Source: Arenicola marina | Lineage: Eukaryota; Annelida; Polychaeta; Arenicolidae | Reading direction: 5' to 3' | DNA length: 64,000 nucleotides | Assembly (NCBI GenBank): GCA_964019135.1 | Contig: OZ025258.1 | Span: 2,294,001 to 2,358,000 of the forward strand | Part shown: positions 1 through 32,654 of the stretch, piece by piece | Position numbering within the stretch: the first letter of the stretch is position 1 | How the letters are laid out: each line of letters opens with the position of its first letter | Notes under the pieces: model-generated | Seen by the model: only the letters and a program-made list of their open reading frames with translations | Told to the model about the DNA's origin: nothing | The model's database searches: none | Translations under genes and position numbers: made by a program

Positions 1-3000
1 TCTCTGTGGTCACTGTCCCCCACCTCTCTGTGGTCACTGTCCTCCACCTCTCTGTGGTCACTGTCCTCCACCTCTCTGTGGTCACTGTCCTCCACCTCTC
101 TGTGGTCACTGTCCTCCACCTCTCTGTGGTCACTGTCCCCCACCTCTCTGTGGTCACTGTCCCCCACCTCTGTGGTCACTGTCCCCCACCTCTCTGTGGT
201 CACTGTCCTCCACCTCTCTGTGGTCACTGTCCCCCACCTCTCTGTGGTCACTGTCCCCCACCTCTCTGTGGTCACTGTCCTCCACCTCTCTATGGTCACT
301 GTCCCCCACCTCTCTGTAGTCACTGTCCCCCATCTCTCTGTGGTCACTGTCCCCCACCTCTGTGGTCACTGTCCCCCACCTCTCTGTGGTCACTGTCCTC
401 CACCTCTCTGTGGTCACTGTCCCCCACCTCTCTGTGGTCACTGTCCTCCACCTCTCTGTGGTCACTGTCCCCCACCTCTCTGTGGTCACTCTCCTCCACC
501 TCTCTGTGGTCACTGTCCCCCTCCTCTCTGTGGTCACTGTCCTCCACCTCTCTGTGGTCACTGTCCCCCACTTCTCTGTAGTCACTGTCCCCCACCTCTC
601 TGTGGTCACTCTCCTCCACCTCTCTGTGGTCACTGTCCTCCACCACTCTGTGGTCACTGTCCCCCACCTCTCTGTCGTCACTGTCCTCCACCTCTCTGTA
701 GTCACTGTCCCCCACCTCTCTGTGGTCACTGTCTCCAACCTCTATGTGCTCACTGTCCCCCACCTCTCTGTGGTCACTGTCCTCCACCTCTCTGTGGTCA
801 CTGTCCTCCACCTCTCTGTGGTCACTGTCCTCCACCTCTCTGTGGTCACTGTCCCCCTCCTCTCTGTAGTCACTGTCCCCCACCTCTCTGTAGTCACTGT
901 CCTCCACCTCTCTGTGGTCACTGTCCTCCACCTCTCTGTGGTCACTGTCCTCCACCTCTCTGTGGTCACTGTCCTCCACCTCTCTGTGGTCACTGTTCCC
1001 CACCTCTCTGTGGTCACTTTCCCCCACCTCTCTGTGGTCACTGTCCTCCACCTCTCTGTGGTCACTGTCCTCCACCTCTCTGTGGTCACTGTCCCCCACC
1101 TCTATGTGGTCACTGTCCTCCACCTCTCTGTGGTCACTGTCCCCCACCTCTCTGTGGTCACTCTCCTCCACCTCTCTGTGGTCACTGTCCCCCTCCTCTC
1201 TGTGGTCACTGTCCTCCACCTCTCTGTGGTCACTGTCCCCCACTTCTCTGTAGTCACTGTCCCCCACCTCTCTGTGGTCACTCTCCTCCACCTCTCTGTG
1301 GTCACTGTCCTCCACCACTCTGTGGTCACTGTCCCCCACCTCTCTGTCGTCACTGTCCTCCACCTCTCTGTAGTCACTGTCCCCCACCTCTCTGTGGTCA
1401 CTGTCTCCAACCTCTATGTGCTCACTGTCCCCCACCTCTCTGTGGTCACTGTCCTCCACCTCTCTGTGGTCACTGTCCTCCACCTCTCTGTGGTCACTGT
1501 CCTCCACCTCTCTGTGGTCACTGTCCCCCTCCTCTCTGTGGTCACTGTCCCCCACCTCTCTGTAGTCACTGTCCTCCACCTCTCTGTGGTCACTGTCCTC
1601 CACCTCTCTGTGGTCACTGTCCTCCACCTCTCTGTGGTCACTGTCCTCCACCTCTCTGTGGTCACTGTTCCCCACCTCTCTGTGGTCACTTTCCCCCACC
1701 TCTCTGTGGTCACTGTCCTCCACCTCTCTGTGGTCACTGTCCTCCACCTCTCTGTGGTCACTGTCCCCCACCTCTATGTGGTCACTGTCCTCCACCTCTC
1801 TGTGATCACTGTCCTCCACCTCTCTGTGGTCACTGTCCTCCACCTCTCTGTGGTCACTGTCCTCCACCTCTCTGTGGTCACTGTCCCCCACCTCTCTGTG
1901 GTCACTGTCCTCCACCTCTCTGTGGTCACTGTCCCCCACCTCTCTGTAGTCACTGTCCCCCACCTCTCTGTGGTCACTGTCCCCCACCTCTCTGTGGTCA
2001 CTGTCCCCCACCTCTCTGTGGTCACTGTCCTCCACCTCTCTGTGGTCACTGTCCCCCACCTCTCTGTAGTCACTGTCCCCCACCTCTCTGTGGTCACTGT
2101 CCCCCACCTCTCTGTGGTCACTGTCCCCCACCTCTCTGTGGTCACTGTCCTCCACCTCTCTGTGGTCACTGTCCTCCACCTCTCTGTGGTCACTGTCCTC
2201 CACCTGTCTGTGGTCACTGTCCCCCTCCTCTCTGTGGTCACTGTCCCCCACCTCTCTGTAGTCACTGTCCTCCACCTCTCTGTGGTCACTGTCCCCCACC
2301 TCTCTGTAGTCACTGTCCCCCACCTCTCTTTGGTCACTGTCCCCCACCTCTCTGTGGTCACTGTCCCCCACCGCTCTGTGGTCACTGTCCTCCACCTCTC
2401 TGTGGTCACTGTCCTTCACCTCTCTGTGGTCACTGTCCTCCACCTCTCTGTGGTCACTGTCCCCCTCCTCTCTGTGGTCACTGTCCCCCACCTCTCTGTA
2501 GTCACTGTCCTCCACCTCTCTGTGGTCACTGTCCCCCACCTCTCTGTGGTCACTGTCCTCCACCTCTCTGTGGTCACTGTCCTCCACCTCTCTGTGGTCA
2601 CTGTCCTCCACCTCTCTGTGGTCACTGTCCTCCACCTCTCTGTGGTCACTGTCCCCCACCTCTCTGTGGTCACTGTCCTCCACCTCTCTGTGGTCACTGT
2701 CCTCCACCTCTCTGTAGTCACTGTCCCCCACCTCTCTGTGGTCACTGTCCTCCACCTCTCTGTGGTCACTGTCCCCCACCTCTCTGTGGTCACTGTCCTC
2801 CACCTCTCTGTGGTCACTGTCCTCCACCTCTCTGTGGTCACTGTCCTCCACCTCTCTGTGGTCACTGTCCCCCACCTCTCTGTGGTCACTGTCCCCCACC
2901 TCTCTGTGGTCACTGTCCTCCACCTCTCTGTGGTCACTGTCCCCCACCTCTCTGTGGTCACTCTCCTCCACCTCTCTGTGGTCACTGTCCCCCACCTCTC

Positions 3001-6000
3001 TGTGGTCACTGTCCCCCACCTCTCTGTGGTCACTGTCCCCCTCCTCTCTGTGGTCACTGTCCTCCACCTCTCTGTAGTCACTGTCCCCCACCTCTCTGTG
3101 GTCACTGTCCCCCACCTCTCTGTGGTCACTGTCCCCCACCTCTCTGTGGTCACTGTCCTCCACCTCTCTGTGGTCACTGTCCTCCACCTCTCTGTGGTCA
3201 CTGTCCCCCACCTCTCTGTGGTCACTGTCCTCCACCTCTCTGTGGTCACTGTCCCCCACCTCTCTGTAGTCACTGTCCCCCACCTCTCTGTGGTCACTGT
3301 CCCCCACCTCTCTGTGGTCACTGTCCTCCACCTCTCTGTGGTCACTGTCCTTCACCTCTCTGTGGTCACTGCCCTCCACCTCTCTGTGGTCACTGTCCTC
3401 CACCTCTCTGTGGTCACTGTCCCCCACCTCTATGTGGTCACTGTCCTCCACCTCTCTGTGATCACTGTCCTCCACCTCTCTGTGGTCACTGTCCTCCACC
3501 TCTCTGTGGTCACTGTCCTCCACCTCTCTGTGGTCACTGTCCCCCACCTCTCTGTGGTCACTGTCCTCCACCTCTCTGTGGTCACTGTCCCCCACCTCTC
3601 TGTAGTCACTGTCCCCCACCTCTCTGTGGTCACTGTCCCCCACCTCTCTGTGGTCACTGTCCTCCACCTCTCTGTGGTCACTGTCCCCCACCTCTCTGTA
3701 GTCACTGTCCTCCACCTCTCTGTGGTCACTGTCCTCCACCTCTCTGTGATCACTGTCCCCCACCTCTCTGTGGTCACTGTCCTCCACCTCTCTGTGGTCA
3801 CTGTCCTCCACCTCTCTGTGGTCACTGTCCTCCACCTCTCTGTGGTCACTGTCCTCCACCTCTCTGTGGTCACTGTCCCCCACCTCTCTGTAGTCACTGT
3901 CCTCCACCTCTCTGTGGTCACTGTCCTCCACCTCTCTGTGATCACTGTCCCCCACCTCTCTGTGGTCACTGTCCTCCACCTCTCTGTGGTCACTGTCCCC
4001 CACCTCTCTGTGGTCACTCTCCTCCACCTCTCTGTGGTCACTGTCCCCCACCTCTCTGTGGTCACGGTCCCCCACCTCTCTGTGGTCACTGTCCCCCACC
4101 TCTCTGTCGTCACTGTCCTCCACCTCTCTGTAGTCACTGTCCCCCACCTCTCTGTGGTCACTGTCTCCAACCTCTATGTGCTCACTGTCCCCCACCTCTC
4201 TGTGGTCACTGTCCTCCACCTCTCTGTGGTCACTGTCCCCCTCCTCTCTGTGGTCACTGTCCTCCACCTCTCTGTAGTCACTGTCCCCCACCTCTCTGTG
4301 GTCACTGTCCCCCACCTCTCTGTGGTCACTGTCCTCCATCTCTCTGTGGTCACTGTCCTCCACCTCTCTGTGGTCACTGTCCTCCACCTCTCTGTGGTCA
4401 CTGTCCCCCACCTCTCTGTGGTCACTGTCCCCCTCCTCTCTGTGGTCACTGTCCTCCACCTCTCTGTGGTTACTGTCCCCCACCTCTCTGTAGTCACTGT
4501 CCTCCACCTCTCTGTGGTTACTGTCCTCCACCTCTCTGTGGTCACTGTCCCCCACCTCTCTGTGGTCACTGTCCCCCACCTCTCTGTGGCCACTGTCCCC
4601 CACCTATCTGTGGTCACTGTCCTCCACATCTCTGTGGTTACTGTCCCCCACCTCTCTGTGGTCACTGTCCTCCACCTCTCTGTAGTCACTGTCGCCCACC
4701 TCTCTGTGGTCACTGTCCTCCACCTCTCTGTGGTCACTGTCCCCCACCTCTCTGTGGTCACTGTCCTCCACCTCTCTGTGGTCACTGTCCTCCGCCTCTC
4801 TGTGGTCACTGTCCTCCACCTCTCTGTGGTCACTGTCCTCCGCCTCTCTGTGGTCACTGTCCCCCACCTCTCTGTGGTCACTGTCCTCCACCTCTCTGTG
4901 GTCACTGTCCCCCACCTCTCTGTGGTCACTGTCCTCCACCTCTCTGTGGTCACTGTCCTCCGCCTCTCTGTGGTCACTGTCCCCCACCTCTCTGTGGTCA
5001 CTGTCCTCCACCTCTCTGTAGTCACTGTCGCCCACCTCTCTGTGGTCACTGTCCTCCACCTCTCTGTGGTCACTGTCCCCCACCTCTCTGTGGTCACTGT
5101 CCCCCACCTCTCTGTGGTCACTGTCCCCCACCTCTCTGTGGCCACTGTCCTCCACCTCTCTGTGGTCACTGTCCCCCACCTCTCTGTGATCACTGTCCTC
5201 CACCTCTCTGTAGTCACTGTCCTCCACCTGTCTGTGGTCACTGTCCTCCATCTCTCTGTGGTCACTGTCCTCCACCTCTCTGTGGTCACTGTCCCCCACC
5301 TCTCTGTGGTCACTGTCCCCCACCTCTCTGTAGTCACTGTCCCCCACCTCTCTGTGGTCACTGTCCCCCACCTCTCTGTGGTCACTGTCCCCCACTTATC
5401 TGTGGTCACTGTCCTCCACCTCTCTGTGGTTACTGTCCTCCACCTCTCTGTGGTCACTGTCCCCCACCTCTCTGTGGTCACTGTCCTTCTCTGTGGTCAC
5501 TGTCCCCCTCCTCTCTGTGGTCACTGTCCCCCTCCTCTCTGTGGTCACTGTCCCCCACCTCTCTGTGGTCACTGTCCCCCACCTCTCTGTAGTCACTGTC
5601 CCCCACCTCTCTGTGGTCACTGTCCTCCACCTCTCTGTGGTCACTGTCCTCCACCTCTCTGTAGTCACTGTCCCCCACCTCTCTGTGGTCACTGTCCCCC
5701 ACCTCTCTGTGGTCACTCTCCTCCACATCTCTGTGGTCACTGTCCCCCACCTCTCTGTGGTCACTGTCCCCCACCTCTCTGTGGTCAATGTCCCCCTCCT
5801 CTCTGTGGTCACTGTCCTCCACCTCTCTGTAGTCACTGTCCCCCACCTCTCTGTGGTCACTGTCCCCCACCTCTCTGTGGTCACTGTCCCCCACCTCTCT
5901 GTGGTCACTGTCCTCCACCTCTCTGTGGTCACTGTCCTCCACCTCTCTGTGGTCACTGTCCCCCACCTCTCTGTGGTCACTGTCCTCCACCTCTTTGTGG

Positions 6001-9000
6001 TCACTGTCTTCCACCTCTCTGTGGTCACTGTCCCCCACCTCTATGTGGTCACTGTCCTCCACCTCTCTGTGATCACTGTCCTCCACCTCTCTGTGGTCAC
6101 TGTCCTCCACCTCTCTGTGGTCACTGTCCTCCACCTCTCTGTGGTCACTGTCCCCCACCTCTCTGTGGTCACTGTCCTCCACCTCTCTGTGGTCACTGCC
6201 CCCCACCTCTCTGTAGTCACTGTCCCCCACCTCTATGTGGTCACTGTCCTCCACCTCTCTGTGATCACTGTCCTCCACCTCTCTGTGGTCACTGTCCTCC
6301 ACCTCTCTGTGGTCACTGTCCTCCACCTCTCTGTGGTCACTGTCCCCCACCTCTCTGTGGTCACTGTCCTCCACCTCTCTGTGGTCACTGTCCCCCACCT
6401 CTCTGTAGTCACTGTCCCCCACCTCTCTGTGGTCACTGTCCCCCACCTCTCTGTGGTCACTGTCCCCCACCTCTCTGTGGTCACTGTCCTCCACCTCTCT
6501 GTGGTCACTGTCCTCCACCTCTCTGTGGTCACTGTCCTCCACCTGTCTGTGGTCACTGTCCCCCTCCTCTCTGTGGTCACTATCCCCCACCTCTCTGTAG
6601 TCACTGTCCTCCACCTCTCTGTGGTCACTGTCCTCCACCTCTCTGTGATCACTGTCCCCCACCTCTCTGTGGTCACTCTCCCCCACCTCTCTGTGGTCAC
6701 GGTCCCCCACCTCTCTGTGGTCACTGTCCCCCTCCTCTCTGTGGTCACTGTCCTCCACCTCTCTGTAGTCACTGTCCCCCACCTCTCTGTGGTCACTGTC
6801 CCCCACCTCTCTGTGGTCACTGTCCTCCACCTCTCTGTGGTCACTGTCCCCCACCTCTCTGTGGTCACTGTCCTCCACCTCTCTGTGGTCACTGTCCCCC
6901 ACCTCTCTGTAGTCACTGTCCCCCACCTCTCTGTGGTCACTGTCCCCCACCTCTCTGTGGTCACTGTCCTCCACCTCTCTGTGGTCACTGTCCTCCACCT
7001 CTCTGTGGTCACTGTCCCCCACCTCTCTGTGGTCACTGTCCTCCACCTCTCTGTGGTCACTGTCCCCCACCTCTCTGTAGTCACTGTCCCCCACCTCTCT
7101 GTGGTCACTGTCCCCCACCTCTCTGTGGTCACTGTCCCCCACCTCTCTGTGGTCACTGTCCTCCACCTCTCTGGTCACTGTCCTCCACCTCTCTGTGGTC
7201 ACTGTCTTCCACCTGTCTGTGGTCACTGTCCCCCTCCTCTCTGTGGTCACTGTCCCCCACCTCTCTGTAGTCACTGTCCTCCACCTCTCTGTGGTCACTG
7301 TCCTCCACCTCTCTGTGGTCACTGTCCTCCACCTCTCTGTGGTCACTGTCCCCCACCTCTCTGTGGTCACTGTCCTCCACCTCTCTGTGGTCACTGTCCT
7401 CCACCTCTCTGTGGTCACTGTCCTCCACCTCTCTGTGGTCACTGTCCCCCACCTCTCTGTGGTCACTGTCCCCCACCTCTCTGTGGTCACTGTCCTCCAC
7501 CTCTCTGTGGTCACTGTCCCCCACCTCTCTGTGGTCACTCTCCTCCACCTCTCTGTGGTCACTGTCCCCCACCTCTCTGTGGTCACTGTCCCCCACCTCT
7601 CTGTGGTCACTGTCCCCCTCCTCTCTGTGGTCACTGTCCTCCACCTCTCTGTAGTCACTGTCCCCCACCTCTCTGTGGTCACTGTCCCCCACCTCTCTGT
7701 GGTCACTGTCCCCCACCTCTCTGTGGTCACTGTCCTCCACCTCTCTGTGGTCACTGTCCTCCACCTCTCTGTGGTCACTGTCCCCCACCTCTCTGTGGTC
7801 ACTGTCCTCCACCTCTCTGTGGTCACTGTCCCCCACCTCTCTGTAGTCACTGTCCCCCACCTCTCTGTGGTCACTGTCCCCCACCTCTCTGTGGTCACTG
7901 TCCTCCACCTCTCTGTGGTCACTGTCCTTCACCTCTCTGTGGTCACTGTCCCCCACCTCTCTGTGGTCACTGTCCCCCACCTCTCTGTGGTTACTGTCCC
8001 CCACCTCTCTGTAGTCACTGTCCCCCACCTCTGTGTGGTTACTGTCCTCCACCTCTCTGTGGTCACTGTCCCCCACCTCTCTGTGGTCACTGTCCCCCAC
8101 TTCTCTGTGGTCACTGTCCCCCACCTATCTGTGGTCACTGTCCTCCACCTCTCTGTGGTTACTGTCCCCCACCTCTCTGTGGTCACTGTCCTCCACCTCT
8201 CTGTAGTCACTGTCGCCCACCTCTCTGTGGTCACTGTCCCCCACCTCTCTGTGGTCACTGTCCCCCACCTCTCTGTAGTCACTGTCCTCCACCTCTCTGT
8301 GGTCACTGTCCCCCACCTCTCTGTGGTCACTGTCCCCCACCTCTCTGTGGTCACTGTCCTCCACCTCTCTGTGGTCACTGTCCCCCACCTCTCTGTGGTC
8401 ACTGTCCTCCACCTCTCTGTGGTTACTGTCCTCCACCTCTCTGTAGTCACTGTCCCCCACCTCTCTTTGGTCACTGTCCCCCACCTCTCTGTGGTCACTG
8501 TCCCCCACCTCTCTGTGGTCACTGTCCTCCACCTCTCTGTGGTCACTGTCCTCCACCTCTCTGTGATCACTGTCCTCCACCTCTCTGTGGTCACTGTCCT
8601 CCACCTCTCTGTGGTCACTGTCCCCCACCTCTCTGTGGTCACTGTCCTCCACCTCTCTGTGGTCACTGTCCCCCACCTCTCTGTGGTCACTGTCCCCCAC
8701 CTCTCTGTGGTCACTGTCCTCCACCTCTCTGTGGTCACTGTCCCCCACCTCTCTGTGGTCACTGTCCTCCACCTCTCTGTGGTCACTGTCCTCCACCTCT
8801 CTGTGGTCACTGTCCTCCACCTCTCTGTGGTCACTGTCCCCCACCTCTCTGTGGTCACTGTCCCCCACCTCTCTGTGGTCACTGTCCTCCACCTTTCTGT
8901 GATCACTGTCCTCCACCTGTCTGTGGTCACTGTCCTCCACCTCTCTGTGGTCACTGTCCTCCACCTCTCTGTGGTCACTGTCCCCCACCTCTCTGTGGTC

Positions 9001-9980
9001 ACTGTCCCCCACCTCTCTGTGGTCACTGTCCCCCACCTCTCTGTGGTCACTGTCCCCCACTTATCTGTGGTCACTGTCCTCCACCTCTCTGTGGTCACTG
9101 TCGCCCACGTCTCTGTGGTCACTGTCCTCCACCTCTCTGTGGTCACTGTCCCCCACCTCTCTGTGGTCACTGTCCTCCACCTCTCTGTGATCACTGTCCT
9201 CCACCTGTCTGTGGTCACTGTCCTCCACCTCTCTGTGGTCACTGTCCTCCACCTCTCTGTGGTCACTGTCCCCCACCTCTCTGTGGTCACTGTCCTCCAC
9301 CTCTCTGTGGTCACTGTCCCCCTCCTCTCTGTGGTCACTGTCCCCCACCTCTCTGTGGTCACTGTCCCCCACCTCTCTGTGGTCACTGTCCCCCACCTCT
9401 CTGTGGTCACTGTCCTCCACCTCTCTGTGGTCACTGTCCCCCACCTCTCTGTGGTCACTGTCCCCCACCTCTCTGTGGTCACTGTCCCCCACCTCTCTGT
9501 GGTCACTGTCCCCCACCTCTCTGTGATCACTGTCCTCCACCTCTCTGTGGTCACTGTCCCCCACCTCTCTGTGGTCACTGTCCTCCACCTCTCTGTGGTC
9601 ACTGTCCCCCACCTCTCTGTGGTCACTGTCCCCCACCTCTCTGTGGTCACTGTCCCCCACTTATCTGTGGTCACTGTCCTCCACCTCTCTGTGGTTACTG
9701 TCCTCCACCTCTCTGTAGTCACTGTCCTCCACCTCTCTGTGGTCACTGTCCCCCACCTCTCTGTGGTCACTGTCCCCCACCTCTCTGTGGTCACTGTCCC
9801 CCACCTCTCTGTGGTCACTGTCCCCCACCTCTCTGTGGTCACTGTCCCCCACCTCTCTGTGGTCACTGTCCCCCGCCTCTCTGTAGTCACTGTCCTCCAC
9901 CTCTCTGTGGACACTGTCCCCCACCTCTCTGTAGACACTGTCCCCCACCTCTCTGTGGACACTGTCCTCCACCTCTCTGT
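1..9980. repeat. 24-bp minisatellite array in an SLX1 intron
   Basis: About 415 tandem copies of a 24-bp unit, core TCTCTGTGGTCACTGTCC followed by a CCCACC or TCCACC end. The plus strand is C/T-rich. Because 24 is a multiple of 3 and the unit lacks stops in most frames, it gives very long spurious open frames on both strands (8-residue repeats such as CGHCPPPL or VVTVPHLS); none should be annotated as protein. Common variants are GTAG for GTGG, CCCCTCC for CCCCACC, and GATCAC. The right end stops about 5 bases before the AG of a 3' splice site of SLX1 (exon from 9986), so the array is intronic. It continues off the left edge of the window. Higher-order duplication is visible (see the 672-bp entry). 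Confidence 0.97.
480..1800. repeat. 672-bp higher-order repeat within the 24-bp array
   Basis: A block of 28 units is duplicated in tandem. The rare variant GTCTCCAACCTCTATGTGCT occurs at 731 and again at 1403, 672 bp apart, and the run of variants around it (CACTCTCC, CACTTCTCTGTAG, CCACCACTCTG, CTGTCGTC) recurs in the same order. A third, shorter relic with the same GTCTCCAACC marker lies at 4163, exactly 115 units from the second. This shows block-wise unequal exchange or replication slippage, not only single-unit change. Confidence 0.85.
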
Positions 9981-9985
9981 TTTAG

Positions 9986-10342
9986 TTTGAGTGGGCGTGG
10001 CAGAATCCGAAGAAGTCTTGCCGTCTGAAGCACCTGCCTGGAAAGCGAGTCTCCGAGAGTCGTTTCCAGTACCGCCTGAGGATTATGTCCCGGATGCTGA
10101 ACACCGGACCATGGAACCGGCTGCCCTTGACCGTGCGCTGGCTGATCCAGGATTACCAGCAGGACTTCGATCCAGACAGCCTGCCCCCAGCGCACATGCC
10201 GCTGGCGTTTGGACCGGTGGTCAGCACGAGGGTGGCCAGGACACGTGAGGGGCAGCGGCCCCCCCACACAGACCCCCCCGCGCTCCTGACGCCCCCTGGC
10301 TTCTCAAAGTGTCGCTGCGACGTGTGCAAACAGAAGTTTAAG
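9986..10342 (+). CDS. SLX1: SLX1 exon: end of GIY-YIG domain, linker and start of RING
   Basis: The acceptor is TCTCTGTTTTAG, ending at 9985; its polypyrimidine tract is the last minisatellite unit. The donor is AAG|GTAACT at 10342/10343. The exon is 357 nt, phase 0 at both ends, 119 residues. Residue 2 of the exon is the conserved Glu of FEWAW. The first RING cysteines (CRCDVC) are near the end. The overlapping frame ending at 10028 is array read-through. Confidence 0.92.
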
Positions 10343-11267
10343 GTAACTTTTACCACAGTGCTGCGGAAAGACAGAAAGTTGGTTGGTCTTGACTGCAGTC
10401 AATCAGATGGCAATCGGCAATCGTAGGCCATAATAAGCATGCAGGGCATAGATGGGGGGAAGAGGTATGCAGTCTGACATAGATTAGGGCTAGGGCGCTC
10501 CCTGTCGGTGGGTTCGGTAAACAACATGTGCACACGGTTGTGACGTTGCGCCAAAGGCACAAGTTTTGACTCTTGTGGGGGGACAATTTTTGAAGTATGA
10601 TTGTTTTGGGTCAATGGTGCGTTAGTAGGTTGGTAGGTTTGTGTTCTTATGCGCAAAATCGACATTCTAAATTAGCGAAACACCTCGAAATGTAACTGTA
10701 ACGCTATAACATCAAGACATACATGTGCTATTAATGTGAATGTGGTGGCTGTGGCGGCAGGGTGTGGAGGACACGCTGCGCTGTCTGGTGGGTGGCTGCC
10801 CCATGGAGGCACACACCCTGTGCACAGCCCGGATGTACCTGGCTGGCACCCCAGGCCAGCTACTGCCGGTACAGGGAAGATGTCCCCTCTGCCGCACAGA
10901 CATCCTCTGGGGAGACCTCATCCGCTTCAAATGTGGCTGTTACCAAAACCGACAAGAGGTAAGTGGGAAAACACGTGTTCATTATCTATGCGTTATCCAG
11001 TTGTTTGGCCAGCGAGTGTCAGGTACCACCTGACACTGACAGCACTTTACTTGTCTCTCGTGCTCTTCGACAGTTCGCAGTAGTTTACGGTGCAACGGGA
11101 TGAAGTTTACCCCACAACAGTATTGTAACTATATAACATCAGTAGGTACGTGTAAAAAGATTTATTTCATTAATGTATTTTGTTCCTGATAGGACAGCGA
11201 CACTGATCGTGATGATCACTGGTCCTCACAGCTACAGAGAGGGCGGGCCTCACCGCCGCACTCCTGA
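9986..11267 (+). CDS. SLX1: SLX1 structure-specific endonuclease subunit, 3' three exons (partial gene)
   Basis: Three exons, 9986-10342, 10761-10958 and 11193-11267, join in phase 0 and encode 209 residues to a TGA at 11265-11267. SLX1 is the catalytic GIY-YIG subunit of the SLX1-SLX4 nuclease, which cuts branched DNA and Holliday junctions in the nucleus. The first exon opens with FEWAWQ, the block holding the family's catalytic glutamate, and continues with MLNTGPWNRLPLTVRW and MPLAFGP, close to vertebrate SLX1. Next comes the C-terminal zinc RING (CRCDVC, then LRCLVGGCPMEAHTLC, then GRCPLCRTDILWGDLI). The last exon gives an acidic tail with DDHW, matching the HW near the vertebrate C-terminus. 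The N-terminal exons with the GIY-YIG motif lie left of the window, beyond the 24-bp array. Identification rests on recalled family sequence; I am confident of it. Confidence 0.93.
10343..10760 (+). other. SLX1 intron with a dispersed-repeat fragment
   Basis: A GT-AG intron between the two RING-coding exons. It carries no tandem array. Bases 10640-10691 are roughly 80% similar by eye to 32210-32264 (shared TTGTGTTCTTA, then CGCAAAATCGACATTC), so part of it is a dispersed repeat copy. Confidence 0.7.
10761..10958 (+). CDS. SLX1: SLX1 exon: RING zinc-finger core
   Basis: The acceptor is GTGGCGGCAG at 10760 and the donor GAG|GTAAGT at 10958/10959. The exon is 198 nt, phase 0, 66 residues. It contains the zinc ligands of LRCLVGGCPMEAHTLC and GRCPLC, then ILWGDLI, a block strongly conserved at the end of the SLX1 RING. 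In SLX1 this domain contacts the C-terminal region of SLX4. Confidence 0.93.
11193..11267 (+). CDS. SLX1: SLX1 terminal coding exon, stop inside a minisatellite unit
   Basis: The acceptor is TGTTCCTGATAG, ending at 11192. The 25 codons include an acidic stretch DSDTDRDDHW followed by [14 protein letters not shown] and TGA. The last 14 codons plus the stop are the first copy of the 24/37-bp repeat that fills the following 2 kb. The native tail past DDHW has therefore been replaced by, or has itself seeded, the array. Confidence 0.85.
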   Translation, partial: DSDTDRDDHWSSQLQRGRASPPHS

Positions 11268-17080: not shown

Positions 17081-20000
17081 CTACAATAAAGACAAAGACA
17101 TCCATTGTAAAGACATCCATTGTAAAGACATCCAGTATGTTCTGCTATAACGTTGCGCTGGATAGGTCAATGTCAAACTGGGTCCACTGCGATAACGACT
17201 AATACCTAGAGCTCGGCAGGAGAAGAGGACTGGACCTAGCGTGACGTGGGCACTGACCCGGCAGCTGAGCTTGACCGCACTGCTCAGCTGGTCCTGACAG
17301 ATGGGACATGTGTTGTCCATGGCCTGCACCTCCTCACCACTGGGAACGCTGCCGTAAATCTGCAACGACATTACATTCACCGTTCTTACTCCACTTTTAT
17401 CTGGAGGGACTGTTGTGTATGTCAGCATTGGGCCCCATGTAGCGAGCGACCTGTACGGCTTAAACTGTAGTTGAAACACGACATTGACGAAATAAATTAA
17501 CTTACTTTGACTTGAAAACAGGAGAGAAATGCAGTCTTAAGTTCTTTGCCTTTCTGGTGAAGATGCAAACCCTGAAAACATAAAATTTTGCTATAGCTAG
17601 CTCAGCAAAGCCATGCAGAAATCTGGCGTAAATATATATTATATACATATTTATATATAACTACTTTCTATGAAGCTTCATGGACGAAAGCTTTAAAAAG
17701 AAGACTATAATCTACACTGTAGAACTTGGTAAGCTGAAGCACTGACGACACACACAAAGCTGTACAGATGAATAGGTAACAGATGTATAGGCAACAGATG
17801 TATAACAGATGTATAGGTAACAGATGTATAGGCAACAGGTGTATAGGCAACAGGTGTATAACAGATGTATAGGTAACAGATGTATAGGCAACAGGTGTAT
17901 AACAGATGTATAGGTAACAGATGTATAGGCAACAGGTGTATAGGCAACAGGTGTATAACAGATGTATAGGTAACAGATGTATATGACACAGGTGTATAAC
18001 AGATGTATAGGTAACAGATGTATAGGCAACAGGTGTATAACAGATGTATAGGCAACAGGTGTATAACAGATGTATAGGTAACAGATGTATAGGCAACAGG
18101 TGTATAACAGATGTATAGGTAACAGATGTATAGGCAACAGGTGTATAGGCAACAGGTGTATAACAGATGTATAGGTAACAGATGTATAGGCAACAGGTGT
18201 ATAACAGATGTATAGGTAACAGATGTATAGGCAACAGGTGTATAACAGATGTATAGGCAACAGGTGTATAACAGATGTATAGGTAACAGATGTATAGGCA
18301 ACAGGTGTATAGGCAACAGGTGTATAACAGATGTATAGGTAACAGATGTATAGGCAACAGGTGTATAACAGATGTATAGGCAACAGGTGTATAACAGATG
18401 TATAGGTAACAGATGTATAGGCAACAGGTGTATAAAAGATGTATAGGTCGTGGACAAAGGTGAGGCATGTTGACTGGGCGTCCATGTGCTGACCTTGAAG
18501 ACTGCGTAGACACAGACTATGCCGATGGCGATCCACTGCCCGCCATACTGGCTGTCCATCAGGAAGGCGACCCAGGGAGGCACGGGCAGTAAACTTCGGT
18601 AGAACTGACTCACAGATTCCAAAAATACATAGGTGCTCCCCTGGAACAATTAAGGCAGCTCCACGTTAACAGGGATCGGCATTATAACAATGGTTTTTGG
18701 TTCACTAACATCGAGCTTAGCACTGACTCACGTACACCGGAAAAACGCACAAACTAATGTTCATAAAATGTACATATTTATTGATTCATGTCAATGAAGG
18801 GCTACTCTGGCAAAGTTTTTTCTCTACTCTGTACCGGGTTAGGGGTTCGCGCCCTCGAGTCCGTATGTCTCTGCGACAAGGTGTCCAGTTTAAACACAAC
18901 ATACAGATTTAACAATATTGAGCAAACGTCTTTTCTGCCATACCTTTCTGCTGAAGGAGATGATGTGTCTAGGCAGAAGTCCCACAAAGGACTTTATAGC
19001 GATGGTGACAAACTTGGCGACGAAGTCCGTGACAATGACGATCCAGAAGAGCGACCAGACGGTCATGGCATTGCCGACGAGCGGCAGCTGGAAATACAGA
19101 CTAAAACAACGACAGGGGCGTCAGCAACCAGGCGTCCTGGGCGTCAGCAACCAGGCGTCCTGGGCGTCAGTAACCAGGCGTCCTGGGCGTCAGCAACCAG
19201 GCGTCCTGGGCGTCAGCAACCAGGCGTCCTGGGCGTCAGCAACCAGGCGTCCTGGGCGTCAGCAACCAGGCGTCCTGGGCGTCAGCAACCAGGCGTCATC
19301 GGCGTCAGCAACCAGGCGTCCTGGGCGTCAGCAACCAGGCGTCCTGGGCGCCGTGAGGGATGGTTACACGCGTGGCTTCCATTACCAGCCGTCAACATGG
19401 AAGAGGACCATGCAGTGCCGGGAGTATGTACTTATTGGTTGCTACACAGCCATGGAGCGTAAGGTACAGAACGGGTCATAGCAGCCATGGAGCGTAAGGT
19501 ACAGAACGGGGCATAGCAGCCATGGAGCGTAAGGTACAGAACGGGTCATAGCAGCCATGGAGCGTAAGGTACAGAACGGGGCATAGCAGCCATGGAGCGT
19601 AAGGTACAGAACGGGTCATAGCAGCCATGGAGCGTAAGGTACAGAACGGGGCATAGCAGCCATGGAGCGTAAGGTACAGAACGGGGCATAGCAGCCATGG
19701 AGCGTAAGGTACAGAACGGGTCATAGCAGCCATGGAGCGTAAGGTAAAGAACGGGTCATAGCAGCCATGGAGCGTAAGGTATAGAACGGGTCATAGCAGC
19801 CATGGAGTGTAAGGTACAGAACGGGTCATAGCAGCCATGGAGCGTAAGGTACAGAACGGGTCATAGCAGCCATGGAGTGTAAGGTACAGAACGGGTCACA
19901 GCAGCCATGGAGCGTAACGTATAGGACGGGTCATAGTAGCCATGGAGCGTAAAGTAAAGAACGGGTCATAGCAGCCATGGAGTGTAAGGTACAGAACGGG

Positions 20001-23000
20001 TCATAGCAGCCATGGAGCATAAGGTAAAGAGTGGGCCATAGCAGCCATGGAGCGTAAGGTACAGAACGGGTCATAGCAGCCATGGAGCGTAAGGTACAGA
20101 ACGGGGCATAGCAGCCATGGAGTGTAAGGTACAGAACGGGTCATAGCAGCCATGGAGCGTAAGGTACAGAACGGGTCATAGCAGCCATGGAGCGTAAGGT
20201 ACAGAACGGGTCATAGCAGCCATGGAGCGTAAGGTACAGAACGGGTCATAGCAGCCATGGAGCGTAAGGTACAGAACGGGTCATAGCAGCCATGGAGCGT
20301 AAGGTAAAGAACGGGTTATAGCAGCCATGGAGCGTAAGGTACAGAACGGGGCATAGCAGCCATGGAGTGTAAGGTACAGAACGGGTCATAGCAGCCATGG
20401 AGCGTAAGGTACAGAACGGGTCATAGCAGCCATGGAGTGTAAGGTACAGAACGGGTCACAGCAGCCATGGAGCGTAACGTATAGGACGGGTCATAGTAGC
20501 CATGGAGCGTAAAGTAAAGAACGGGTCATAGCAGCCATGGAGTGTAAGGTACAGAACGGGTCATAGCAGCCATGGAGCATAAGGTAAAGAGTGGGCCATA
20601 GCAGCCATGGAGCGTAAGGTACAGAACGGGTCATAGCAGCCATGGAGCGTAAGGTACAGAACGGGGCATAGCAGCCATGGAGTGTAAGGTACAGAACGGG
20701 TCATAGCAGCCATGGAGCGTAAGGTACAGAACGGGGCATAGCAGCCATGGAGCGTAAGGTACAGAACGGGTCATAGCAGCCATGGAGCGTAAGGTACAGA
20801 ACGGGTCATAGCAGCCATGGAGCGTAAGGTACAGAACGGGTCATAGCAGCCATGGAGCGTAAGGTACAGAACGGGTCATAGCAGCCATGGAGCGTAAGGT
20901 AAAGAACGGGTTATAGCAGCCATGGAGCGTAAGGTACAGAACGGGGCATAGCAGCCATGGAGTGTAAGGTACAGAACGGGTCATAGCAGCCATGGAGCGT
21001 AAGGTACAGAACGGGTCATAGCAGCCATGGAGTGTAAGGTACAGAACGGGTCATAGCAGCCATGGAGCGTAAGGTAAAGAGTGGGCCATAGCAGCCATGG
21101 AGCGTAAGGTACAGAACGGGTCATAGCAGCCATGGAGCGTAAGGTACAGAACGGGGCATAGCAGCCATGGAGTGTAAGGTACAGAACGGGTCATAGCAGC
21201 CATGGAGCGTAAGGTACAGAACGGGTCATAGCAGCCATGGAGCGTAAGGTACAGAACGGGTCATAGCAGCCATGGAGCGTAAGGTACAGAACGGGTCATA
21301 GCAGCCATGGAGCGTAAGGTACAGAACGGGTCATAGCAGCCATGGAGTGTAAGGTAAAGAACGGGTCATAGCAGCCATGGAGCGTAAGGTACAGAACGGG
21401 GCATAGCAGCCATGGAGCGTAAGATACAGAACGGATCATAGCAGCCATGGAGCGTAAGGTATAGAACGGGTCATAGCAGCCATGGAGCGTAAGGTACAGA
21501 ACGGGTCACAGCATTATCCCCAAGCAACAGGGATTCAGGAATTCATGTATTTGTTTGGCTTGTCTTACCATAGATCAGTTGATATGACAGATGCTCAGTG
21601 TTTAATATTGGAGGGCCAAGGTAAGCTAGCCAGCAGTAGGACGCACCTTCGGTAGAGATACTCGTCCAGGAAGACGTAGTACAGGAAGACAATGTTGCCC
21701 GCCAGAAAGGCTATCACCCAGACGATAGAGGGCGCCGTCTGTCTCCAGCCCTCCGTGTGCTGAAAGGTTGATTACCATAATTAACACTTTGCACTCCATT
21801 AAATACATCATCTATTATATATGTAACACTGGGACGATGCTTTCTACCGCATGTGGAAGCGTGATCTGAAGACAACAGTTGTACCCTGAGCAAGTATAAT
21901 CCGTTTCCTTTCATTAATATTTAAATTCCGGCACAACCAAACTCACCCGTGTCGTTATGTGCTTTTTAAATTTGTCATTGGCGTAGTAGAACGTGCCGCC
22001 TAGCGCCAGGACTATCAGCAGCCCTGGCAACAGAACAAGACAGGAATACGTGGAGCAGACACTTGCACTGAGATATGGTACAGCTTACACCGCTATTAGT
22101 TATTCACAAAAACGTGAAAGTTATCCGACAAGAGTTGAGTGCTTGTTAAGCTCTTGTATCAAAGTATCTACTTAACTTTTAGGCGGTCATTCCCACGCCT
22201 AATCGCGGTTGATAACCTCGAGCATAGTGCACAGTTGTGGAAATGCGAATTGATTACACGTGGCTGCCTATGACTGTATATGGCCTTACCTTGCCTGTGA
22301 CTGTATATGGCCTTACCTTGCCTGTGACTGTATATGGCCTTACCTTGCCTGTGACTGTATATGGCTTTACCTTGCCTATGACGTATATGGCCTTACCTTG
22401 CCTGTGACTGTATATGGCCTTACCTTGCCTGTGACTGTATATGGCCTTACCTTGCCTATGACTGTATATGGCCTTATCTTGCCTATGACTGTATATGGCC
22501 TTACCTTGCCTGTGACTGTATATGGCCTTACCTTGCCTGTGACTGTATATATCCTTACCTTGCCTATGACGTATATGGCCTTACCTTGCCTGTGACTGTA
22601 TATGGCCTTACCTTGCCTATGACGTATATGGCCTTACCTTGCCTATGACAGTATATGGCCCTACCTTGCTTATGACTGTATATGGCCTTACCTTGCCTAT
22701 GACTGTATATGGCCTTATCTTGCCTATGACTGTATATGGCCTTACCTTGCCTGTGACTGTATATGGCCTTACCTTGCCTGTGACTGTATATATCCTTACC
22801 TTGCCTATGACGTATATGGCCTTACCTTGCCTGTGACTGTATATGGCCTTACCTTGCCTATGACTCTATATGGCCTTACCTTGCCTATGACTGTATATGG
22901 CCTTACCTTGCTTATGACTGTATATGGCCTTACCTTGCCTATGACTGTATATGGCCTTACCTTGCTTATGACTGTATATGGCCTTACCTGGCCTGTGACT

Positions 23001-24533
23001 GTATATGGCCTTACCTTGCTTATGACTGTATATGGCCTTACCTTGCCTATGACTGTATATGGCCTTACCTTGCCTGTGACTGTATATGGCCTTACCTTGC
23101 CTGTGACTGTATATGGCCTTACCTTGCCTGTGACTGTATATGGCCTTACTTTGCCTGTGACTGTATATGGCCTTACCTTGCTTATGACTGTATATGGCCT
23201 TACCTTGCCTATGACTGTATGTGGCCTTATCTTGCCTGTGACTGTATATGGCCTTATCTTGCCTGCGACTGTATATGGCTTTACCTTGCCTATGACGTAT
23301 ATGGCCTTACCTTGCCTATGACGTATATGGCCTTACCTTGCCTATGACTGTATATGACCTTACCTTGCCTGTGACGTATATGGCCTTACCTTGCCTGTGA
23401 CTGTATATGACCTTACCTTGCCTGTGACGTATATGGCCTTACCTTGCCTGTGACTGTATATGGCCTTACCTTGCCTGTGACTGTATATGGCCTTGCCTTG
23501 CCTGTGACTGTACATGGCCTTACCTTGCGTGGCCTTACCTTGCTTGTGACTGTATATGGCCTTACCTTGCCTATGACGTATATGGCCTTACCTTGCCTAT
23601 GACTGTATATGACCTTACCTTGCCTGTGACGTATATGGCCTTACCTTGCCTGTGACTGTATATGGCCTTACCTTGCCTGTGACTGTATATGGCCTTGCCT
23701 TGCCTGTGACTGTACATGGCCTTACCTTGCGTGGCCTTACCTTGCTTGTGACTGTACATGGCCTTACCTTGCCTGTGACTGTACATGGCCTTACCTTGCC
23801 TGGCCTTACCTTGCTTGTGACTGTACATGACCTTACCTTGCCTATGACTGTATATGGCCTTACCTTGCCTGTGACTGTACATGACTTTGACCATGAGAAG
23901 GGCGAAGAAAGGCAGGCTGCTTTCCAACATCTGGGCCACCTTTTTTGGGAGCATGCCGGACGCCATCTGGCCCATACTGGGGGGGTTGGCTTGGCGCGGG
24001 CCAGCGGCCGTCCCGCGGGGCAGCCTCAGCGGCGGCCGCCGGTCACTGCCTGCCCCCTGCTGCTCCCCAAAGCTCCCTCCCTGCTGTCCCCGGGGGAGGG
24101 GCCGCCCGTCACCCACGTCCACAATGACGCTGTCCAGCGGCTGTCCCACCATACCCGTCAAGGGCACTTGGACGCCTTGCGGGGTGTGGGCGCCCGGGAT
24201 AAGTGCCCCCAAGTGGGGTGCCCCCAGGTGGGGTCCGCCTAAGTGGGGTCCGCCCATGTACACGGCAGGGCGCACTGTGGGCGTGGTCAAGCCGGACACC
24301 GTGGAGGTGCCACGGTGCTGAAGGTGCGCCTGCAGATGTCTGGCCAGCACAGAAGCAGATTGTTCCTTCTGGGACAGAGTTAAGTCCGGTTTTCTGCCCC
24401 CGGGCAGGCTGTGCTCGTGGCCTGGGGCGGCGGTCGGCTGTCTGGACATGGTGGGCCGCGCTACACTGGTGTCACCAGGGGGCACCACTGCAACCGCCAG
24501 ATCTCCCACAGTAGGCAGGCTCAGTGTGGACAT
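16949..24533 (-). CDS. RNFT: RING finger and transmembrane domain protein (RNFT1/RNFT2 type), complete, eight exons
   Basis: Eight exons on the minus strand join in consistent phase to 1464 nt, 487 aa: 24533-23864, 22023-21947, 21759-21647, 19100-18944, 18640-18494, 17571-17506, 17359-17258, 17080-16949. The family are ER-membrane RING-type E3 ubiquitin ligases. The N-terminal 200 or so residues are low-complexity and Pro/Gly-rich. Hydrophobic segments follow (FFALLMVKVMY, LLIVLALGGTFYYA, IVWVIAFLAGNIVFLYYVFL, VWSLFWIVIVTDFVAKF, IAIGIVCVYAVF). The RING (C3HC4) has C428, C431, C443, H445, C448, C451, C462 and C465, with the family block HIFCEECVCLWFDREKTCPM. The C-terminus WRDGATSAMLQLF matches the conserved WKDGATSxHxQ end. 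Which vertebrate paralogue is closer cannot be settled by eye. The start ATG (24533) has an in-frame TGA 12 nt upstream. Confidence 0.92.
17097..17133. repeat. 15-bp tandem repeat beside RNFT exon 8 acceptor
   Basis: Two full copies and part of a third copy of GACATCCATTGTAAA, in the intron 16 bp from the exon 8 border. Confidence 0.85.
17258..17359 (-). CDS. RNFT: RNFT exon 7: first half of RING
   Basis: 102 nt, phase 0, acceptor GTCGTTGCAG|ATT at 17360/17359, donor CCGG|GTCAGT at 17258/17257. Encodes up to DNTCPICQDQLSSAVKLSCR, holding the first three zinc-binding cysteines. Confidence 0.92.
17506..17571 (-). CDS. RNFT: RNFT exon 6: linker
   Basis: 66 nt, 22 codons, acceptor TTTTCAG|GG at 17572/17571, donor AAA|GTAAGT at 17506/17505. 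Encodes GLHLHQKGKELKTAFLSCFQ and two more residues. It is too short to stand out alone; it is supported by strong splice sites and phase 0 joins. Confidence 0.85.
17757..18455. repeat. 15/11-bp minisatellite in RNFT intron 5
   Basis: Mixed units AGGTAACAGATGTAT, AGGCAACAGGTGTAT (15 bp) and AACAGATGTAT (11 bp), usually as a 41-bp triplet. All three minus-strand frames stay open (IHLLPIHL, CYTPVAYTS types), all spurious. Confidence 0.95.
18494..18640 (-). CDS. RNFT: RNFT exon 5: transmembrane region before the RING
   Basis: 147 nt, phase 0 at both ends, acceptor TTCCAG|GGG at 18641/18640, donor AAG|GTCAGC at 18494/18493. Encodes ESVSQFYRSLLPVPPWVAFL and the helix WIAIGIVCVYAVF. The S-Q-L/F-x-R-S-L-x-P-x-P/Q-x-W block is a family hallmark. 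The long frames running left of it are array read-through. Confidence 0.92.
18944..19100 (-). CDS. RNFT: RNFT exon 4: transmembrane segments
   Basis: 157 nt, acceptor GTTGTTTTAG|T at 19101/19100, donor AAAG|GTATGG at 18944/18943. Encodes LYFQLPLVGNAMTVWSLFWI and on through VTDFVAKFVTIAIKSFVGLL. The Trp/Asp motif WxVxVTDF is typical of the family. Confidence 0.9.
19107..19351. repeat. 23-bp minisatellite in RNFT intron 3
   Basis: About ten copies of a 23-bp unit, core GGGCGTCAGCAACCAGGCGT, starting about 15 bp from the exon 4 acceptor. The plus-strand frames over it are spurious. Confidence 0.95.
19441..21510. repeat. 35-bp minisatellite in RNFT intron 3
   Basis: About 59 copies of a 35-bp unit, core GCAGCCATGGAGCGTAAGG followed by TACAGAACGGGTCATA. 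A 560-bp (16-unit) higher-order duplication is clear: the rare variant GCGTAACGTATAGGACGGG recurs at 19913 and 20473 with the same neighbours. Confidence 0.96.
21647..21759 (-). CDS. RNFT: RNFT exon 3: transmembrane segment
   Basis: 113 nt, acceptor CTTTCAG|CAC at 21760/21759, donor CGAAG|GTGCGT at 21647/21646. Encodes HTEGWRQTAPSIVWVIAFLA and the rest of a hydrophobic helix to DEYLYR. Ends two bases into a Ser codon completed by exon 4. Confidence 0.9.
21947..22023 (-). CDS. RNFT: RNFT exon 2: transmembrane segment
   Basis: 77 nt, acceptor TTGCCAG|GG at 22024/22023, donor CACGG|GTGAGT at 21947/21946. Encodes the end of a split Gly codon, then LLIVLALGGTFYYANDKF and a basic loop ending TTR. 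Ends in phase 0. Confidence 0.88.
22268..23885. repeat. 27-bp minisatellite made of RNFT exon 1 donor copies
   Basis: About 60 copies of a 27-bp unit. Read on the minus (coding) strand each unit is TACAGTCACAGGCAAG|GTAA plus GGCCATA, the last codons of RNFT exon 1 and its 5' splice site. The rightmost copy is the real exon end (donor at 23864/23863). Some units are 25 bp (loss of two bases at ACTGTA) or 15 bp, and a few have GGCAAGGCAAGG with the GT lost. Confidence 0.95.
23864..24533 (-). CDS. RNFT: RNFT exon 1: low-complexity N-terminus and first hydrophobic segment
   Basis: The start ATG is at 24533, preceded in frame by TGA; an earlier GTG is not needed. The exon is 670 nt and ends CAAG|GTAAGG at 23864/23863, one base into a Gly codon. 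The joined reading MYSHRQ-G-LLIVLALGGTF matches the family's order here (His, basic, Gly, then a helix ending in FxYAN). The last seven codons and the donor are one unit of the 27-bp array that follows. A GGPHLGGPHLGAPHLGA run at about residues 94-110 is a small internal repeat. Confidence 0.87.
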
Positions 24534-28664: not shown

Positions 28665-30346
28665 ATGTTGAACGAATCGTATGACACACAGAAGGCTATG
28701 GACGAAGCCCTCGATATGCGCGACATGTATGAAGACGAATTCGCAACACACGTACGCTGTTCAGGTGTCAGTGACACGGAACTGATGAATTTCGCACAGG
28801 AAGGCGATATAAAAATGGGACTATATCCTCACTTCTCGGATGTCAGCGATGAAGAATTAAGTGTGGTCACTCAGCAAGTGGAGGAAGACGCTCTGTTGGT
28901 GACGGCTGCCGATGAGGCCGAATTGGCTGCGTCTGGGGTGGAACGGCGACCTGATGACAAGAGGCAGGAGCCACAAATGCGTTGCCGTTTTCCCGTGGCC
29001 CCAGAAGCAACGATTGCGGCACAGAGCGTAAAAAGGTAAGCTTATGTGCTGTTTAAAGTCCACCATAAGATATCGTTTGTATTATTACCCCCCCCCCCCC
29101 CCTTCCCAAGGTAGACGTTTTTTTACCCCCCCCCCCTCACGGTTTTCACTTTCCAGTAGATTTCATCCTCTTAAAATCGTGGAAATGCATTCTAATATTA
29201 TGCCACATTTTCAATCACTTCAGGTTTGCCCCCAAGACGGAGAGTAAGATCAAGTGGGCTGTCAAGATTTTCAACGATTGGAGAGATCAACGCAATGATT
29301 ATGCTGAACGCGACCCTGCCCTCAACCTGAGCCAAATATTTGTGCGGCTCGAGGATATGACTGTCGATGAACTAAATTATAGCCTCGCACGCTTAATCTG
29401 TGAGGCGCGCAACACCAAGGGAGAGGAATACCCTTCAGAAACGCTGCGCTCGATCGTTCTCATGATACAGATGTATCTGGAGCAGCAAGGAACTCCTTAT
29501 CGCTTTCTTTCAGATTATCGCTTTTCCCAAATTCGCAACACCCTTGACAACTGCATGAAGCAGTTGTGCCGAGAAGGCATAGTCACCGCTAAGCAGAAGG
29601 CGGATATCATCACGATAGAAGAAGAAGAACAATTGTGGGAGACTGGTATCCTCGGTGTTGACGAACCTGAGACTCTATTACATACCATGTTTTATACTAT
29701 TGGTTTAAACTTCGCCTTACGTGGGGGAGAAGAACACCGGCGACTGCGTCACGGCGAAAGAGCTCAAATTAAATTAGATAAATCCTCATCCTCGGAGAAA
29801 ATATTGCGTTACACAGAAGACCATTCAAAGTCTCATCAGGGCGGCCTGAAGCATGTCAATAGGAACAGGAAATCAGTAACTGTCTTTTGCAATGATACCA
29901 CCCCGGAAAGATGTCCCGTTCAGATCTTTGAAAAGTACTTATCTCATTGCCCGGAGCCCCACGAGGGACCCTTCTACCTTCGTCCATTGAAGCAGGCGGT
30001 CGGCGACATTTGGTTTTCTAAGGTTCCTCTTGGACGACATAAACTGAGCCAAATATTGAAGGATATTTGTGTAAAGGCAGGTCTTGGGGGCTACCGTACC
30101 AACCATTCTCTCCGCGCCACAGCCGCCACTCGGCTGTATGCGGCTGACATCGATGAGCAAGGTATCTGTGAGGTAACGGGTCACTCATCTGCAGCCGTGC
30201 GTTCGTACAAACGCACGGCTGAAACACAACAGCGTAACATCAGCCACATCGTGCAAGGACAGCGGTCTGATAACAAACGTGTGGCCAGTGCAGATGCAGA
30301 CAATGTAAAGCCTTACTCAATCACTGTAAATATTCAAATTCAATGA
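28665..30346 (+). CDS. Crypton-family tyrosine recombinase (DUF3504-like), two exons
   Basis: Exon 1 is 28665-29035 (donor AAAAG|GTAAGC), exon 2 is 29224-30346 (acceptor CACTTCAG|G). The split Arg codon joins SVK-R-FAPKTESKIKWAVKIF and gives 497 aa. The acidic N-terminus is followed by the DNA-binding-like region, then a catalytic domain with the full tyrosine-recombinase set: R290 (LRGGEEH), H418 and R421 (NHSLR), H444 (TGHSS), Y452 (VRSYKR). The family cuts and rejoins DNA through a 3'-phosphotyrosine. Related domains survive, inactive, in vertebrate ZMYM2 and QRICH1. Here frames are intact, so it may be active or recently so. The ATG at 28665 is chosen as first in frame; a GTG at 28647 also fits. 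Confidence 0.8.
29036..29223 (+). other. Crypton intron with poly-C tracts
   Basis: A 188-bp GT-AG intron with two homopolymer C runs (around 29089-29102 and 29127-29136). Confidence 0.75.
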
Positions 30347-32264: not shown

Positions 32265-32654
32265 AATTTCAAGCGGAACACGGAGATTGTGTTCCGATAG
32301 CGCGGTCACGTGGTACATTTCACTCCCGGAACTTACTCCCCACCCAGAGGAGGATCACGAGGATTTCCAACATGGCATCAAGGCCCAACAATGCGTGAAG
32401 TATATATAAAGAAGTATTTCGACCTACAAAACATCTGTAAATAATATTATAACAACTAGAATAAAATAACTCCTATCCCTACTCCATATAGGCCCTATCC
32501 GTAGGCCCCAACTCCTAACCCTCATCCCAACCCCTGACCCCTAAGCCCAACCCCTGACCCCTAATCCCTAATCGATTACCACTCCCCGATCCTAACGATA
32601 ACCTTGGGAGTACGCACATACGTATGTCGTTCAGTCTTGCATTGTGTTCGTCGG

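Follow-up and report, generated by a model that had tools for sequence, protein, structure and literature searches.

A minisatellite of 61 copies of the exon 1 donor in an RNFT-like gene of the annelid Arenicola marina resembles the mirages of lancelets

The window, i.e. the whole stretch of 64,000 nucleotides that was analysed, contains on its minus strand a gene of eight exons that join into one open frame of 487 amino acids, with GT and AG at all introns. The translation ends in a C-terminal C3HC4 RING finger (PF13920, E 1.2e-9, residues 425-469), and hydrophobic stretches are visible in it. We take the gene to be RNFT, a RING finger and transmembrane E3 ligase. The start of exon 1 was placed, by assumption, at the first ATG in the open frame. 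The features of the gene, all on the minus strand, are listed below; exons are read from the frame and a slash marks the exon-intron border.

23864..24533, minus strand: first coding exon, phase 1, ending in ...MVKVMYSHRQ (open frame)
23858..23866, minus strand: canonical 5' splice site AAG/GTAAGG, last exon base 23864 (parse and reading frame)
22265..23883, minus strand: minisatellite with 61 donor copies, mostly of 27 bp (TRF and donor parse)
23645..23837, minus strand: nine further in-frame donors, eight GT and one GC (23699), the coordinates being those of the last base before the donor (parse)
23571..23573, minus strand: first in-frame stop when exon 1 is read through, +290 nt (frame translation)
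21947..22023, minus strand: exon 2, which completes the G codon and continues with LLIVLALGGTFYYANDKFKKHITTR, acceptor TTGCCAG/GG
21759-21647, minus strand: exon 3
19447-21513, minus strand: 35-bp intron array, 133 nt from exon 3 (TRF)
19116-19350, minus strand: 23-bp intron array, 15 nt from exon 4 (TRF)
19100-18944, minus strand: exon 4
18640-18494, minus strand: exon 5
17764-18448, minus strand: 41-bp intron array, 45 nt from exon 5 (TRF)
17571-17506, minus strand: exon 6
17359-17258, minus strand: exon 7, which together with exon 8 gives the RING finger and the stop
17080-16949, minus strand: exon 8

The gene lies in a repeat-rich neighbourhood, with 27 merged tandem arrays (period of at least 10) in the window. 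From the left edge of the window (1-9986) extends a pyrimidine-rich array with a 24-bp unit, which is at least 9.98 kb long and stops 5 nt short of an exon at 9986; the last unit therefore provides the polypyrimidine tract of the acceptor. By eye, this exon is SLX1-like, and an SLX1_C match at 10740-11033 on the plus strand (E 4.7e-15) identifies an SLX1 nuclease gene in convergent orientation to that of RNFT. On the plus strand there is also an open frame at 29069-30346 with matches to DUF3504, QRICH1 and a tyrosine recombinase, which resembles a Crypton-type element or a gene of such origin, and pieces of a non-LTR retrotransposon at 48930-52118, in which one frame is endonuclease-like and another matches RVT_1 (E 1.4e-32). 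At 32506-32571, inside the chromosome arm, there are short, degenerate, telomere-like repeats of CCCTAAC.

Elsewhere in the genome, the mitochondrion (15,942 bp) carries a COX1 with 13 TGA codons, read with code table 5; under the vertebrate mitochondrial code, COX1 would contain internal stops, and the echinoderm and ascidian codes were compared with table 5 by eye. Taken as a circle, it has its protein genes on a single strand, arranged as cox1-cox2-cox3-nad6-cob-atp6-nad5-nad4L-nad4-LSU rRNA-nad1-nad3-nad2, where names other than COX1 and LSU rRNA were given by eye from the translations. We take this to be the annelid order. The genome also has a match of 82.5 bits to Eryth_link_C, the erythrocruorin linker, presumably an annelid family, and none was found in 14 control genomes. 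A lancelet host, which the published mirages had first suggested, was rejected on these annelid markers; GFP gave no match in this genome, but as the control genomes gave none either, this by itself says little.

Intron 1 of the RNFT-like gene is 1840 bp long and consists mostly of a 27-bp tandem array, located by TRF at 22265-23883. Parsing on the minus strand (seed of 11 nt, at most 2 mismatches) yields 61 donor-centred copies, each unit being formed by about 21 nt of exon end followed by GTAAGG. The spacing from donor to donor is 27 bp in 47 cases, 26 bp in ten and 15 bp in three. Fifty copies, the real exon 1 donor included, read AAG/GTAAGG; the other 11 of the 61 differ from it, as AAG/ATAAGG (4), AAG/GCAAGG (2), AAG/GTAAAG (2) or single variants (3), so that GT is kept in 55. 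The array contains the string AAGGTAAGG 50 times, whereas 200 mononucleotide shuffles average 0.025 occurrences; on both strands of the remaining window it is found a single time.

The outermost copy, donor 1 of 61, coincides with the end of exon 1, which reads ...GTC ATG TAC AGT CAC AGG CAA G/GTAAGG on the minus strand. The predicted end at 23864 is supported by the unbroken eight-exon frame that terminates in the RING. The first-pass annotation had described, at 22268..23885, a minisatellite of about 60 copies of a 5' splice site, each unit combining the end of exon 1 with its donor, the outermost copy being the real exon end and dozens of donors being nearly identical. All of this is borne out, the outermost junction through the reading frame, except that the array reaches 22265. 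By eye, no splice-site copies were seen in the 35-, 23- and 41-bp intron arrays of the same gene.

It could be argued that the array is a plain intron satellite that resembles the exon end, or an artefact of assembly. Tandem arrays make up 64% of the window, and arrays that adjoin exons are therefore expected. However, the first copy sits within coding exon 1 and contributes to the protein sequence. At this identity the assembly (867 Mb in 762 contigs searched) has the array, like exons 1 and 2, at a single place, and the same arrangement is seen at other loci. We regard this explanation as extremely improbable.

The frame of exon 1 stays open for 290 nt into the intron, up to the stop that the first-pass annotation had correctly placed at 23573-23571. 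Before it there are ten in-frame donors, of which nine have GT and one has GC; one of the ten is the real donor, and eight of the nine further ones are identical to it in all nine letters. The annotation had counted about eight further in-frame donors down to about 23639 and explained the change of phase by a 2-base deletion. The in-frame run exists, but its further members are nine and the last is at 23645, and the phase is lost through the 26-bp units, each of which lacks one base. The first of these lies between donors 10 and 11, so the first nine spacings (27 or 15 bp) all keep the frame; donors 11 and 12 have lost it, and all later ones (13-61) lie beyond the stop.

This run is what favours another proposal of the first-pass annotation, a tunable insertion in which donors of the first ten units add blocks of nine or five residues and the copy number sets the mix. 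Nine further donors before the stop, eight with the letters of the real one, and nine spacings none of which breaks the frame speak for it. Against this, ten of the 60 spacings are 26 bp, which gives nine frame-keeping spacings at the start a chance of about 1 in 6 if independence is assumed.

The units themselves indicate how the array grew. Among the 60 donor-to-donor units there are 24 types, and the blocks FDGHI and HKUHAV recur, hence several units were probably copied at one time. Units with the ATG that marks the true exon lie close to it, at donors 1, 3, 5, 6, 8 and 16 of 61; most others have ATA. If units were independent, all six would fall among the first 16 donors with a chance of 1.4e-4, a figure to be read with the facts that units are not independent and that the cut at 16 was chosen after the positions had been viewed. 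Unit 2, which reads GTAAGG+TCATGTACAGTCACAAGCAAG, suggests that the seed consisted of 21 nt from the exon and 6 nt from the intron.

Arrays of the same kind are found at other genes of this genome. We read 11 further donor arrays and three acceptor arrays, mostly in dynein heavy chain genes, as follows.

C4: 22-bp donor array, 35 donor copies, exon end ...SIIMAAK/GTAAGC (found by similarity to the RNFT array)
C1: 33-bp donor array, 45 donor copies, starting inside an exon-like frame (found by donor pattern)
L049: five donor arrays of 23, 41, 109/144, 63 and 56 bp in one 10-kb dynein stretch
L055, 153-1054, minus strand: 95 bp x 9.5 donor array in a dynein paralogue, at the same exon end as the L056 array
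L056, 146-3042, minus strand: 78 bp x 37 donor array with about 36 donors in a dynein paralogue, at the same exon end as the L055 array
L054, 1182-2155, minus strand: 87-bp acceptor array whose 11 copies each combine the acceptor with the beginning of the exon, the last copy being the real one
L061 (C11), 1546-1801: 54-bp donor array in dynein, with five copies across which the exon frame stays open up to the limit of the available sequence
L058-L061: 34-bp donor array, besides the 54-bp one, and 75-bp and 62-bp acceptor arrays

Eight of the 11 donor arrays lie at exons that match the dynein motor families AAA_6, AAA_7 or AAA_8, and the evidence beyond dynein consists of the RNFT array with those on C4 and C1. 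For the C4 gene, no Pfam family could be named from the joined exons; directly after its 22-bp array follows a 33 bp x 37 array with CCAGGGTGAGC across the unit joint (L012, minus strand, 5250-6469). The frame at the C1 array gives a FYVE match below the cut-off. In L049, four exon ends are covered by matches to AAA_7 and AAA_8, and the fifth, at the 56-bp array, is without a match. An AAA_6 search of the genome gave 94 matches, and tandem repeats of exon pieces were visible in three paralogues; the 95- and 78-bp donor arrays and the 87-bp acceptor array were picked up through these visible tandem matches. The L055 and L056 arrays may reflect common inheritance or two separate origins. An open frame of 1037 amino acids runs through the 87-bp array, and exact acceptor motifs number 11 in L054, three in L059 (4.0 copies by TRF) and two in L060. 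L057, fetched together with L054-L056, has no array at an exon edge. The 23-bp array of L007 (C17) was considered as a donor array and rejected, its consensus having no GT donor.

In ten of the 11 other donor arrays the parsing script (11-nt seed, at most 2 mismatches) meets a stop before any additional in-frame copy of the donor, which speaks against the tunable insertion. For the 23-bp dynein array the script placed the junction one base early, and the immediate stop is unaffected. The exception is the 54-bp array of L061, the only donor array besides that of RNFT, among 12, to be open in frame. The unit length is a multiple of three in five of the 12 (27, 33, 63, 78, 54), not so in six (22, 23, 41, 56, 95, 34) and mixed in one (144/109); no frame bias in unit length was seen among these 12 arrays.

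To see how often arrays cross exon edges, we used L058-L061 (10.4 kb, 17 AAA_6 exon pieces), four of nine stretches, which were selected for shortness and did not include the three paralogues already known to have arrays. Exon limits in this set are the ends of profile matches, and borders are thus inexact. Of 12 merged arrays, four straddle an edge (two donors, two acceptors) compared with 4.3 under random placement (P (>=4) 0.75), and none lies inside an exon piece, where 2.0 would be expected (P 0.10). With L054-L057 included, 28 exon pieces show seven straddled edges, a count that errs upward because these loci were fetched partly for their visible tandem matches. In the small L058-L061 set the arrays show no attraction to splice sites; they seem to land anywhere, and those that cross a junction to survive.

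These counts bear on whether the arrays are under selection, with repeated donors holding U1 on long introns or raising expression. Tandem triples that carry a donor are more frequent genome-wide than the backward pattern, 4630 against 740 for AAGGTAAG and 4652 against 2015 for CAGGTAAG. But these counts are of overlapping matches and not of arrays (a 5-bp repeat makes up one of the groups listed), and an excess of donor triples is expected because introns begin with such donors. For both patterns, the places listed are the first ones on C1. Among seven AAGGTAAG array regions, an exon-like frame anchors the array of L051; the array queried in L049 runs on the opposite strand, and the five donor arrays described above are the ones on the exons of the gene; in L047, L048 and L050 no exon could be recognised. 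Selection is further disfavoured by straddling that is no commoner than random placement, by the existence of acceptor arrays, and by the RNFT donor itself, which varies in 11 of the 61 copies. We consider it very unlikely.

Our preferred reading, to which we give a probability of roughly 0.8, is that the RNFT array is a neutral minisatellite of the type called "mirage", seeded by a tandem duplication across the junction of exon 1 and intron 1, with the exon-most donor in use. A short tandem duplication would have happened to cover the junction, and repeated unequal exchange or slippage, multi-unit blocks included, would then have expanded the array into the intron. The array would be tolerated because its outermost copy leaves the exon intact and still joined to a functional donor. 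Productive RNFT mRNA would come from this exon-most donor, by likeness to the other arrays, and the remaining copies would be intron. At the dynein motor exons, which host eight of the 11 other donor arrays, inserts should break the motor, and productive splicing there should thus use the boundary copy. One point against this reading is that the first ten RNFT donors are all in frame.

What would single out the first donor is less obvious. The 50 AAG/GTAAGG donors score equally with a position matrix and with pairing to the U1 5' end. The letters of the first donor are the same as those of 49 others, and we found no distinguishing sequence mark, so position would have to decide, through exon definition or first-come binding. 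Masking of the internal donors by RNA structure was rejected, since local folding predicts the first donor to be the least accessible of all 61. When equal donors compete, the one nearer the 3' splice site is generally expected to win. Given equal donors, this 3'-ward preference and the low accessibility, use of the exon-most copy requires another cause, e.g. exon definition or first-come commitment.

Internal donors could also be used without regulation and at a low level, with the array acting as a sink of splicing noise in which transcripts are mostly frameshifted or truncated and then degraded. Fifty-five copies have GT and 50 have the nine letters and the score of the real donor, while copies 11 and 12 shift the frame and copies from 13 onward lie past the stop, all of which fits such a sink. 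In the accessible text of the lancelet reports, on the other hand, aberrant mRNAs were not seen (PMC3087553, PMC3902484). We hold this option to be possible, at somewhat less than even odds; the odds of these alternatives are not mutually exclusive, and low-level stray use of internal donors is compatible with the neutral mirage too.

Regulated use is another matter. Identical donors and a poorly accessible first donor mean that there is no sequence pointer to regulation, and the copy-number-dependent insertion proposed by the first-pass annotation finds no positive support in them; together with the absence of an in-frame run in ten of 11 comparable arrays and the normal splicing reported for lancelet arrays in the portions of the reports available to us (PMC3087553, PMC3902484), this makes it improbable. 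Internal donors may nevertheless be used in RNFT, as this array and the C11 dynein array are the two of 12 open in frame. A broader version, in which arrays are pervasive, the exon-most donor is reliably chosen, and the few arrays open in frame, RNFT included, give copy-number-dependent isoforms, is also improbable, if slightly less so. If pervasive arrays with exon-most choice are real, they constitute a natural experiment on the selection of 5' splice sites. Most donors of the array are identical in their letters, so the deciding factor must be position, exon context or timing, and a long-standing question about 5' splice-site choice becomes testable by ordinary RNA reads. Gene annotation is affected as well, because the arrays yield false tandem exon pieces; one dynein exon start shows as eight neighbouring AAA_6 matches.

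The closest known counterparts are the mirages of lancelets, tandem copies of intron-exon boundaries described in Adh3 (Canestro et al. 2002, as cited in PMC3087553 and PMC3902484) and in the globins BflGb6 and BflGb9 (PMC3087553), and, according to the accessible part of a further report, in amphioxus troponin C and, in similar form, PGBD5 (PMC3902484). As far as the available text goes, their AG/GT signals occur in many copies, their length is unstable, and no interference with splicing is reported (PMC3087553, PMC3902484). In structure, the RNFT array is a mirage as judged from its letters: the unit spans exon and intron across the splice junction, the authentic junction, as placed by the frame, is the boundary copy, and the arrangement recurs at several genes with 11 donor and three acceptor arrays more. 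Like the amphioxus mirages, it consists of minisatellite-like copies of an exon-intron boundary, at a donor or an acceptor, with the signals in many copies.

The differences are in host and scale. Mirages are known from cephalochordates and the host here is an annelid, a difference in the place found and not in mechanism. Unit lengths in the accessible text are 10-72 bp for Adh3 and about 150-160 bp for the globins, and the BflGb6 mirage has 6 and 3 units in two haplotypes (PMC3087553), compared with 61 donor copies in RNFT; unlike the lancelet mirages, the annelid dynein has several arrays in one gene. We found no annelid mirages in print among the matches listed from open-licence PMC papers, where published mirages were found only for lancelets, and the annelid host and the scale are what is new. 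The structure is thereby extended to a distant phylum and to a larger size, with 61 copies of one donor and several arrays in one gene.

Three other systems share parts of this picture. Earthworm metallothionein genes have minisatellites in intron 1, with units of about 180 bp on average, and these are annelid intron minisatellites as in RNFT, but copies of a splice junction are not described in the part of that report available (PMC12783039). A model in which introns are gained when AG/GT proto-splice sites are duplicated in tandem, as outlined in the accessible text (PMC3087553), likewise begins with a duplication across a splice signal, whereas in RNFT the old intron has become longer and none has been added. 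Tandem alternative splice sites also place more than one usable site within a short distance. These (of NAGNAG or GTNNGT type) comprise two or three sites a few nucleotides apart, whereas the RNFT array offers tens of sites 27 bp apart in an array that grows.
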